In this document: positions 9,126 to 42,582 of the stretch, one piece after another | Layout: each line of letters starts with the position of its first letter | Position numbering within the stretch: position 1 is the stretch's first letter | Origin: Elusimicrobiota bacterium | Lineage (GTDB): Bacteria > Elusimicrobiota > Elusimicrobia > UBA1565 > UBA9628 | Assembly: GCA_026388095.1 (NCBI GenBank) | Contig: JAPLKL010000052.1 | Location: forward strand, 1-60,146 | Direction: 5' to 3' | Length of the DNA: 60,146 bases | Notes under the pieces: generated by a model | The model's database searches: none | What the model was told of the DNA's origin: nothing | What the model saw: the letters and a program-made list of their open reading frames with translations, nothing else | Position numbers and translations under genes: made by a program

Positions 9126-9146
9126 GGCTGGGTTCCGATTTCTAAA

Positions 9147-9173
9147 TTAGCAATCAGATTGTCTGACTGCTAA
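9147..9173 (-). promoter_or_regulatory. CIRCE operator
   Basis: TTAGCAATC, nine bases, GACTGCTAA. The consensus is TTAGCACTC-N9-GAGTGCTAA, so each arm has one change and the two changes are not complementary to the standard pair. It sits just past the -10 box, covering the transcription start, where bound HrcA would block RNA polymerase. Confidence 0.92.
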
Positions 9174-9174
9174 C

Positions 9175-9203
9175 ATTATAGGCCAAAAGGCCAGAACTGT
9201 CAA
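9175..9203 (-). promoter_or_regulatory. Consensus sigma70 promoter of the hrcA operon
   Basis: Minus strand: TTGACA (9198-9203), exactly 17 bases, TATAAT (9175-9180). Both hexamers match the housekeeping consensus fully. The spacer holds the dyad GGCC-TTTT-GGCC, a member of the recurring motif described at 11407 and 41876. Confidence 0.92.
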
Positions 9204-9237
9204 GTTCAGGAGGGGACTGCCAACTTAGACCAGCGGC

Positions 9238-10046: not shown

Positions 10047-11354
10047 TCAGCGCGTGAGCAGGCCCGCGTCGATCATCCCGTTGCCCTGCTCCTCGGGGGT
10101 GAGGCCGGGGAGCTTCTTGGCGGCCTTCTTGAGCTGCTCGAAGACGCCGTCCGGGCCGTCGAGGCCCACCCAGCCCTGCGCCACCGCCAGAGCCGCCAGG
10201 CCGGTCACGTGGGGAGCGGCCATGGAGGTCCCGTTGAAGTTGGCGAAGCCGCCGTCCATGGCCGAGGAGACGATGCTGACGCCCGGGGCGATGAACTTGA
10301 CTTCCGGCCCGCGGCTGGAGAACGAGGCGATCTTGTCGCTGGAGTCGCTGGCCGCCACCGCGATGGTCTCCGGATAGGCCGCGGGATAGCCCACCGCGCC
10401 GCCGGAATTGCCTGCCGCGGCCACCACGACCACGCCCATGGCCTTGGCGTAGCGCAGGGCCCGCTGCAAAGTCGGGCTGGGTTTGTCCGAGCCCAGGCTC
10501 ATGTTGGCCACCTGGATGTGGTTGTTGGCGCACCAGATGATGCCGTCGACGATGCCGGAGATCGAGCCGCTGCCGTCCGCATCGAGCACGCGCACCGCGT
10601 AGAGCCGGGCCTTGGGGGCCACGCCGACCACGCCCTTGCCGTCCTTGGTGGCGGCGATGGTGCCGGCCACATGGGTGCCGTGGCCGTTCTGGTCCTGGTA
10701 GTTGGCCTTGAGCTCGGTCTTGGTGAAGGCGTCATAGCCGCCGTCCACCTTGCCCTTGAGGTCCGAGTGCTCGGTGTAGATGCCGGTGTCGACCACGGCC
10801 ACGCGCACCTTCGCGCCCTGGGTGTAGTCCCAGGCAGCCGGGGCCCGCACTCGCTCCACGCCCCAAGGGATCTCGGGCCGCAGCGCGGCCATGGTCATGC
10901 CGGCCCGGCTGCTGGTCAGATTGAGCTTGGGCAAAGCGCCCATGGTCGCTTCCATGCTCGGGAAGGCCAGACCCTGGAAGGAGGGCATGGCTTCGATCCA
11001 CTTGGTGGTGAAGTCCGCTTCCACATCGAGGACGTCGCCGGCCGCCACGCCGGGGATGAGGTTCATGACGTCGCGCTTGGCCGCGGCGGAGGAGCCCTTG
11101 CCCAGCTTCGCGGCCACGGCGGCCGGGACCTCGGCCACCAAGGCCACGAACTCGTCGGCGGAGTTGCCGTTGGAGGTGATCTTGTAGGAGGCCATGCTGC
11201 CCAGCGCCTGCAGCACCTTCTGATGCGCGTCGGCCGTGGACTTGGCCTTCATGGTGATGATCACCCTCTGATTGCCCTCGGCCCGCGCCGAGGCCGGGCT
11301 GCCGAGCGTGATCAGGGTAAAGAGCGCGACGATCGCGATGCTCATGATCCTCAT
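10047..11354 (-). CDS. Secreted subtilisin-like serine peptidase (S8)
   Basis: Exported subtilase of 435 residues. The ATG at 11354, behind GGGGGA, gives a clean signal peptide (MRIMSIAIVALFTLITLGSP, then ASARA). A propeptide-like region of about 150 residues precedes the catalytic domain. The triad is D189 (VAVVDTGIYTEHSDL), H225 (NGHGTHVAGTIA) and S377 (NGTSMAAPHVTGLAAL), with oxyanion N316 (AAAGNSGG). An upstream methionine at 11396 would add 14 polar residues before the signal peptide and is less likely. The promoter region carries five phased dyad repeats, so this gene is probably tightly regulated. Confidence 0.93.
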   Translation of the reverse strand: MRIMSIAIVALFTLITLGSPASARAEGNQRVIITMKAKSTADAHQKVLQALGSMASYKITSNGNSADEFVALVAEVPAAVAAKLGKGSSAAAKRDVMNLIPGVAAGDVLDVEADFTTKWIEAMPSFQGLAFPSMEATMGALPKLNLTSSRAGMTMAALRPEIPWGVERVRAPAAWDYTQGAKVRVAVVDTGIYTEHSDLKGKVDGGYDAFTKTELKANYQDQNGHGTHVAGTIAATKDGKGVVGVAPKARLYAVRVLDADGSGSISGIVDGIIWCANNHIQVANMSLGSDKPSPTLQRALRYAKAMGVVVVAAAGNSGGAVGYPAAYPETIAVAASDSSDKIASFSSRGPEVKFIAPGVSIVSSAMDGGFANFNGTSMAAPHVTGLAALAVAQGWVGLDGPDGVFEQLKKAAKKLPGLTPEEQGNGMIDAGLLTR

Positions 11355-11406
11355 GGTGCTGTCCCCCTTCCCGGAGAGCGTCTCAAGCTTGTGCATGCCA
11401 TAGTTA

Positions 11407-11517
11407 TAGGCTAAAGGCCCATATTGGACATGGGCCCACAGGCCCAGAGCGAGATAGGACCAAAGGCCTATATGCTAGGTCCTAAGGCCTGGGGCGGTAC
11501 TGGGCCTTTAAGGACGA
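11407..11517. repeat. Five imperfect dyad repeats, 21-25 bp apart, upstream of the subtilase
   Basis: Copies start at 11407 (TAGGCTAAAGGCCCA), 11431 (TGGGCCCACAGGCCCA), 11455 (TAGGACCAAAGGCCTA), 11476 (TAGGTCCTAAGGCCT) and 11501 (TGGGCCTTTAAGGA). The spacing of starts is 24, 24, 21 and 25 bases, about two helical turns, so most copies face the same side of the DNA. The layout looks like an operator array for a cooperatively binding regulator. The same motif occurs at 41876 and, as single copies, elsewhere. Confidence 0.7.
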
Positions 11518-41875: not shown

Positions 41876-41940
41876 TGGGCCTTTCGACCCAGCCCGGACT
41901 AGGCCCGCAGGACCTAGACAGGGTAGGCCCCAAGGTACTA
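41876..41940 (+). repeat. Three dyad repeats with exact 24-bp period
   Basis: Copies start at 41876 (TGGGCCTTTCGACCCA), 41900 (TAGGCCCGCAGGACCTA) and 41924 (TAGGCCCCAAGGTACTA). The period is 24 bases, twice. They overlap the promoter at 41915-41944. The same motif occurs at 11407-11517. Likely an operator for a regulator that binds cooperatively on one face of the helix. Confidence 0.75.
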
Positions 41941-41944
41941 CAAT
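41915..41944 (+). promoter_or_regulatory. Promoter of the exported protein genes at 41965 and 42594
   Basis: TAGACA (41915-41920), 18 bases, TACAAT (41939-41944). It lies inside the second and third dyad repeats. A good ribosome site, GGAGG (41956-41960), precedes the ATG at 41965. Confidence 0.7.
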
Positions 41945-41964: not shown

Positions 41965-42582
41965 ATGATGAGAACCATGCTTTGCTCGGCTTTGGTCGCG
42001 CTGCTCGGCGCTCCGGCCTTGGCTGGAGGCCTGGAGCAAGCCAAGACCGATCTCCTGACCCCGGCCCTGTCCGAGGGCCTGGCCGCCATCAAGGCCGCCT
42101 CCCCCCGCTGGACCTCCGTGAGCATGAACGTGGACTCCAACGACCCGTTCTACGACGTGCGCGACATGTCCCTGCGCATCAACCTCAACGGGAGCAAGAG
42201 CGGCAACGCCTATTTCTCCTTCAACGGCAATGCGGGCGGCCAGTACCTTTACCTGAGCGCCTCCCCGTACAGCAGCCAGGATCCCCGCCAAGGCTACACT
42301 TTGAGCGGCAGCATGGTGAATCTGTCCATCAACCGCTCGGGCAGCAGCTACTCGATCAACGGCTGGGTGAACCACAAGAACATCTGGCTGCAGGCCACGC
42401 CTTACGCCGGCGGGGGCTTCAGCCTCTGGGGGCAGATGGGCCTGAACCTGAACGTCTCGGGCATGGGCCGGAGCCTGTGGGTGACGGGCAGCGTGGACCT
42501 CAACGAGTTCGACGAGCCGACCCTGGCGTCTCTGGGCGCGGCCCTGTGCGTGCTCAATTCCCTTCCGCCGCAGGCCAAATAG
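41965..42582 (+). CDS. Exported beta-rich protein of unknown function
   Basis: 205 residues. Signal peptide MMRTMLCSALVALLGAPALA. The mature part is full of Ser/Asn/Gly and alternating strands (LRINLNGSKSGNAYFSFNGN, GSSYSINGWVNHKNIWLQAT), typical of secreted beta-sandwich or outer-membrane proteins, but I recognise no family. It has a strong promoter with dyad repeats and a good ribosome site, and it is followed 11 bases later by an exported HEAT-repeat protein. Confidence 0.7.
   Translation: MMRTMLCSALVALLGAPALAGGLEQAKTDLLTPALSEGLAAIKAASPRWTSVSMNVDSNDPFYDVRDMSLRINLNGSKSGNAYFSFNGNAGGQYLYLSASPYSSQDPRQGYTLSGSMVNLSINRSGSSYSINGWVNHKNIWLQATPYAGGGFSLWGQMGLNLNVSGMGRSLWVTGSVDLNEFDEPTLASLGAALCVLNSLPPQAK

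Follow-up and report, generated by a model that had tools for sequence, protein, structure and literature searches.

Two groups of response regulators, LiaR/VraR (envelope stress, Firmicutes) and DosR/DevR (mycobacteria), are the described systems closest to the one considered here. LiaR sites follow the pattern T(X)4C(X)4G(X)4A, and its promoters carry primary and secondary sites (PMC7191749). The DosR consensus was given as the core GGNCTWWAGNCC inside TTSGGGACTWWAGTCCCSAA (PMC2275270), and Lys179, Lys182 and Asn183 of DosR were reported to contact bases (PMC4082495). A work cited in PMC12919924 states in its title that binding is impaired by K182G in DevR or by C8G in the Dev box. DevR sites were described as closely packed and cooperatively bound, with the proximal site overlapping the -35 region (PMC3029386), and DosS as a haem-containing sensor.

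We analyzed a window, meaning here the whole stretch of 60,146 nucleotides, together with samples from its own genome and two further elusimicrobial genomes, and found a recurring unit, a 16-bp palindrome with the joint consensus TRGGNC-TWWA-GNCCYA in the three genomes. It is an inverted repeat whose half-sites lie about one helical turn apart. Judged by its letters, the elusimicrobial motif combines the LiaR and DosR patterns as published: the LiaR pattern is matched at all four letters (T1, C6, G11 and A16 of the matrix), and the motif also fits the DosR palindrome core GGNCTWWAGNCC. In comparison with the Dev box TTSGGGACTWWAGTCCCSAA, the inner 12 positions agree except for the free fourth letter, and the outer S is T/A here; Dev-box C8 corresponds to C6 of the elusimicrobial motif. 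Unlike the DosR/DevR sites, the elusimicrobial units keep strictly to 24-bp steps in register with the -10 box, and the predicted targets are exported proteins rather than a dormancy set.

The earlier note on this DNA had described a five-copy array of one dyad before a secreted subtilase gene, at 11407-11517 of the window, with spacings of 24, 24, 21 and 25 bp. Both the copies and the spacings were recovered, with minus-strand units starting at 11407, 11431, 11455, 11476 and 11501. Unit 1 (11407..11421) is a promoter-proximal 15-bp variant that scores poorly on the 16-bp matrix, and the -10-like TATAAC of the subtilase promoter (11408 down to 11403, minus strand) begins with its outer TA. Unit 2 (11431..11446, matrix score 18.4), unit 3 (11455..11470, 21.5, the best match of the array) and unit 4 (11476..11491, 18.5) are the three of the five that score above 9 on the genome-wide matrix, and unit 5 (11501..11517) is a distal 17-bp variant with a poor score. 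The 21-bp step between units 3 and 4 is an exception to the genome-wide 24-bp rule. The window contains 4 copies of the core AAAGGCCYA where 0.48 would be expected, and 0 of 100 dinucleotide shuffles reached 4. Alignment of the upstream DNA with that of three relatives (elusimicrobial MAGs with subtilase proteins 85-87% identical) showed that the units were kept, unit 5 in part, while the spacers had diverged. The predicted target is the exported subtilase gene at 10047..11354 on the minus strand (Peptidase_S8, E 7.6e-56; signal-peptide-like N-terminus); its most likely start, ATG 11354-11352, was picked by the ribosome-binding site, and the gene caller had placed it at 11396.

A further copy reported at 41876 was also present, followed by units at 41900 and 41924, so that the spacings are 24 and 24. 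This second array lies on the plus strand and consists of a distal unit 1 (41876..41891, matrix score 22.3), unit 2 (41900..41916, a pattern match with one mismatch, matrix score 8.9) and unit 3 (41924..41940, a pattern match with one mismatch), whose outer TA begins the -10-like hexamer TACAAT (41939..41944, plus strand) in register with the grid; this promoter is among the in-phase promoters described below. Its predicted target is the gene of an exported 205-aa protein without a Pfam match (41965..42582, plus strand). Two distant exported-protein genes share motif and phasing, as had been proposed, with 24-bp steps before both. A single minus-strand unit before hrcA (9179..9194, matrix score 16.7; HrcA match by Pfam) abuts a TATAAT at 9175-9180. 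Within 9126-9237, this unit and the TATAAT are followed by an inverted repeat, TTAGCAGTC...GATTGCTAA, which we take to resemble CIRCE. Given the unit and the CIRCE-like repeat, heat-shock and secretome control may meet at the hrcA promoter.

The distribution of the motif was examined in an own-genome sample of 81 stretches from every contig plus the window (1,436,396 bases; 1188 called genes), in G008 (another genus of the same family) and in G047 (another family of the same class). In each, a 16-bp matrix was built by the same procedure, a stringent threshold against Markov controls. The own genome had 60 intergenic sites versus 5.3 in controls, and 302 sites/Mb between genes versus 24/Mb in coding DNA, a 12-fold difference in this 1.44-Mb sample; hits were therefore not spread evenly over coding and non-coding DNA. 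G008 had 24 intergenic sites versus 2.0 in controls (564/Mb versus 74/Mb coding), and G047 had 61 versus 7.0 (1927/Mb versus 166/Mb coding), a density biased by the enrichment of its sample for motif matches. An earlier, looser matrix had given 72 sites versus 8.75 in controls in the own genome, with a coding density of 63/Mb. The stringent procedure replaced an unconstrained EM motif search, which drifted to a generic GC-rich signal. Exact k-mer enrichment in the own genome did not reveal the motif, because it is mainly the contact bases that are common to the units. A restriction or methylation reading of GGNCC was set aside, since GGNCC alone occurred at 7.4/kb between genes versus 7.5 in the Markov control and 12.8 in coding DNA. 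As a separate observation, the own-genome sample (L027-L106) has a frequent intergenic word, GTCCGGACA / ACTGTGTCC / CCGGACACA, in about 25-36 copies versus about 1 expected, which we presume may be a REP/MITE-like end.

Matches were concentrated before genes: they were found in 47 of 548 own-genome intergenic regions that face a gene start versus 1 of 96 that face none, and no region of the latter kind had one in G008 (0/22) or G047 (0/19). The many copies per genome would suit a dispersed, REP/MITE-like repeat, and an RNA element would agree with the array transcript folding somewhat better than its shuffles (z -2.8, a weak signal). However, only the contact bases are shared and the spacers differ, the units lie upstream of the -10 box and are thus mostly not transcribed, and the array had no Rfam match. 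Together with the -10 register, the near absence of matches from regions facing no gene start argues strongly against such an element, which we regard as scarcely credible.

The earlier note had also proposed a regulon of secreted proteins, to be checked by signal peptides. Among intergenic regions facing one gene, a match preceded 19 of 97 signal-peptide genes versus 12 of 296 others in the own genome (Fisher p 6.5e-6), 4 of 15 versus 4 of 85 in G008 (p 0.017) and 11 of 27 versus 10 of 82 in G047 (p 0.003); signal peptides were called by a home-made hydropathy rule and genes by a home-made caller, so the absolute fractions are rough. The proposal is supported by this preference in three genomes, with the addition that array genes are mainly, not only, exported, and about 60-80% of signal-peptide genes have no match. 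The motif, the 24-bp grid and the exported-gene bias recur in two other genera, one of them in another family. The grid locked to the -10 box, the class-wide presence of the motif and the one two-component regulator that tracks it, described below, go beyond what the earlier note had claimed.

Neighbouring units were counted around each site at the matrix threshold minus 5. Of 60 sites in the own genome, 10 had a neighbour at -24 and 11 had one at +24 (mean per offset 0.27), and in G047 at -24 and +24 in 16 and 14 of 61 sites (mean per offset 0.6). G008 had neighbours at -24 in 4 and at -47 in 5 of 24 sites, with +24 below 4. As a 24-bp step corresponds by arithmetic to about 2.3 turns, successive dimers cannot face the same side, which points to contacts made via the receivers or to a spiral arrangement.

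The grid is also in register with the core promoter. A -10-like hexamer was present downstream of the strongest unit in 63 of 87 promoters with a match (three genomes). The best hexamer was in phase, that is, at -2 plus a multiple of 24 from the unit end with a tolerance of 1, in 36 of these 63 versus 7.9 expected (binomial p 5e-17), and out of phase in the other 27; the offset -2 is partly built in because the unit ends in TA, and the classes 22-23, 46-47 and 69-70 are not. The in-phase promoters numbered 18 of 29 in the own genome, 7 of 10 in G008 and 11 of 24 in G047, and 200 shuffles of the downstream part gave a mean of 5.7 and a maximum of 16. A fixed distance to the -10 box would also be expected of a promoter element for an alternative sigma factor. 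The units are palindromic, however, and are found in either orientation relative to the gene (same/opposite 35/25 of 60 in the own genome, 9/13 in G008 and 22/33 in G047), as expected of a dimer binding site; they also recur farther upstream, to about -90, and the -10 hexamer that follows them is sigma70-like. We consider a sigma-factor element very unlikely.

Counted from the hexamer, units in the 36 in-phase promoters start at -38 (18 promoters), -62 (8), -85 (6) and -14 (6). With the hexamer assumed at -12 to -7, the corresponding unit centres are -42.5, -66.5, -89.5 and -18.5, of which -42.5 is the commonest proximal centre (18/36). No TTGACA-like columns were found at -35 among these 36 promoters. 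The same regulator could act as a repressor, its units over -42.5 and -18.5 blocking RNA polymerase until it leaves. The unit at -18.5 in both window arrays, which overlaps the -10 box and core promoter, and the units at -14 from the hexamer in 6 of the 36 in-phase promoters are consistent with repression. In contrast, the predominance of -42.5 without a TTGACA-like -35 element is the layout of activated DevR promoters. Unit position favours activation, and we judge repression unlikely.

The motif is probably read by a conserved NarL-type two-component regulator related to LiaR/VraR and DosR, as indicated by site pattern, protein comparison and co-occurrence. The regulator has the NarL/FixJ features, with Response_reg at the N-terminus (E 7.7e-30) and a GerE HTH at the C-terminus (E 8.1e-18) of the L200 copy, and its receiver Asp region is conserved with respect to VraR and DevR. 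The closest PDB chains over a full-length alignment were VraR/LiaR (8e-37), the closest solved relatives, and DevR (4e-31; 3c3w). In the recognition helix S-V-K-T-[VI]-K-N-H, the K, K and N fall on DosR K179, K182 and N183 as counted in the alignment. The likeness to DosR/DevR includes a NarL-type regulator, several boxes per promoter and the base-contacting K, K and N, whereas the LiaR/VraR chains have the helix KTVKTH in place of KT[VI]KNH. Among the seven own PF00196 proteins read, the K-K-N helix was found only in the two members of this orthogroup.

The regulator was then compared with motif excess across 196 genomes of the class, excess being scored as the pattern with up to one mismatch versus a reversed control. 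The pattern exceeded the control in most families; six families (f6, f7, f8, f9, f13 and f14; 21 genomes together) had 34 pattern hits versus 181 in the control, and the other 175 genomes had 3127 versus 916. A search with PF00196 (LuxR-type HTH) in 40 genomes gave a match in all 24 motif-positive and in 11 of 16 motif-negative genomes. Reading of 50 of these proteins placed one group, 61-97% identical to one or other own copy, in 20 of the 24 motif-positive genomes, and the remaining four (G062, G067, G088 and G091) have a member by the search over 196 genomes. In motif-positive G063, G052 and G053, the group member is the sole PF00196 protein. A regulator match at E<=1e-75 was found in 165 of 196 genomes, and 158 of the 165 have motif excess; the exceptions, mostly fragmentary MAGs, are 7 genomes that have the regulator but no excess and, among the 31 that lack a strong match, 9 that do have excess. 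The best regulator match in the 21 genomes of the motif-less families was 2.9e-69. Homologues from motif-negative G050 and G074 fall in the same loose cluster (42-54% identity), and a helix of the KTVKN or RTVKN type is also present in the weaker homologues of G050 and G049, both motif-less. The G050 protein at L217:7475-8185 is 52-54% identical to the regulator and has the same KTVKNH helix.

The arrays could instead be operators of another transcription factor of the same distribution, with which the NarL-type regulator merely co-occurs. The genome profiling covered the LuxR-type HTH family only, the motif-less families may be one clade, in which case the co-occurrence would rest on one split, and neither of the two own regulator genes has a unit upstream. 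Three independent fits point the other way, namely the LiaR/DosR site pattern, the DosR contact residues and the lack of any other such protein beside the regulator in three motif-positive genomes, and we hold another factor to be unlikely.

The kinase-linked copy of the NarL-type regulator has the gene order CheY-like receiver (in some genomes), sensor kinase, receiver-kinase hybrid and regulator in G000, G005, G008, G047, G063, G052, G053, G078, G054, G062, G092, G143 and G035. In G000, where domains were tested, the sensor kinase is dCache (below cut-off)-HAMP-HisKA-HATPase and the hybrid is receiver-HisKA-HATPase. The predicted extracellular dCache domain of this dCache-HAMP kinase differs from LiaR/VraR systems and from the haem-containing sensor that DosS is described to be. 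An array stands before the regulator gene itself in G008, and arrays lie within about 6 kb of it in G063 and G052. An inverted repeat that is nearly perfect (AATAGGGACAGACACTAC... with its complement; L207:2230-2300), possibly a mobile-element remnant, was seen just upstream of an array in G063. The second regulator copy in G000 adjoins the gene of an exported pro-kumamolisin/fn3 protein. After that protein lies a beta-barrel-like protein (L201:11721-12752; weak Toluene_X match), which we take to resemble PorV. A Tad-pilus label for the regulator neighbours was dropped, as Pfam analysis of six proteins gave only an AAA/M41 (FtsH-like) protein and, below cut-off, a class III signal peptide.

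We propose, with a probability of roughly 0.78, a phosphorelay whose NarL-type regulator occupies tandem units cooperatively and, from -42.5, activates genes for exported proteins. Each unit would be the site of a dimer of the L180/L181 orthologue (receiver plus LuxR-type HTH), which is conserved in most families sampled from the class. The dCache-HAMP sensor kinase and the receiver-kinase hybrid encoded just upstream would respond to a signal and phosphorylate the regulator, and the phosphorylated dimers would bind cooperatively to units 24 bp apart. By analogy to DevR, the dimer near -42.5 may replace the -35 element and recruit RNA polymerase, with dimers at -66.5 and about -90 stabilizing it; the unit at -18.5, which lies over part of the core promoter, may have a tuning or repressing role. 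The result would be coordinated control of many exported proteins, including proteases, nucleases and wall-lytic enzymes. A more speculative extension, which we put forward tentatively and think doubtful, is that one ancestral phosphorelay governs much of the exported proteome in most of the class, that dimers on the rigid 24-bp step (about 100 degrees per step) form a nucleoprotein filament, and that unit number sets promoter strength.

The literature searched, which left most subscription journals out of reach, says little about how genes are regulated in Elusimicrobiota, a phylum known mainly from MAGs, and no report of such a regulon was found in it. Together with the candidate regulator named here, its putative kinases and the targets, the class-wide motif makes up a testable regulon, and promoter sequence could serve to predict exported enzymes. 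The strictness of the 24-bp grid and its lock to the -10 box would also make these arrays a clean natural model of how NarL-type dimers cooperate on DNA.

The predicted targets in the own-genome sample were scanned with Pfam for 43 of 46 array genes, with three short ones omitted and long ones cut at 700 aa. Among the products were papain-type peptidases (2), endonuclease I (2), subtilase, M48, NlpC/P60, amidase_2, PLD-like and TPR proteins. HrcA, alanyl-tRNA synthetase, a transporter of the MFS type and a methyltransferase were also present; hrcA and the alanyl-tRNA synthetase gene are examples of array genes whose products are not exported. The array-linked exported proteins at L034:1863, L078:6438, L078:4454 (minus strand) and L068:16355, in which the signal peptide is soon followed by an FDQGV/FDRGI stretch, are perhaps an undescribed secreted family. 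Long exported array proteins at L033:5604 (minus strand), L068:14939, L072:11756 (minus strand), L096:2928 and L057:8003 have similar mature N-termini (AAxxQVxSxQVxxxVxxxG-like).
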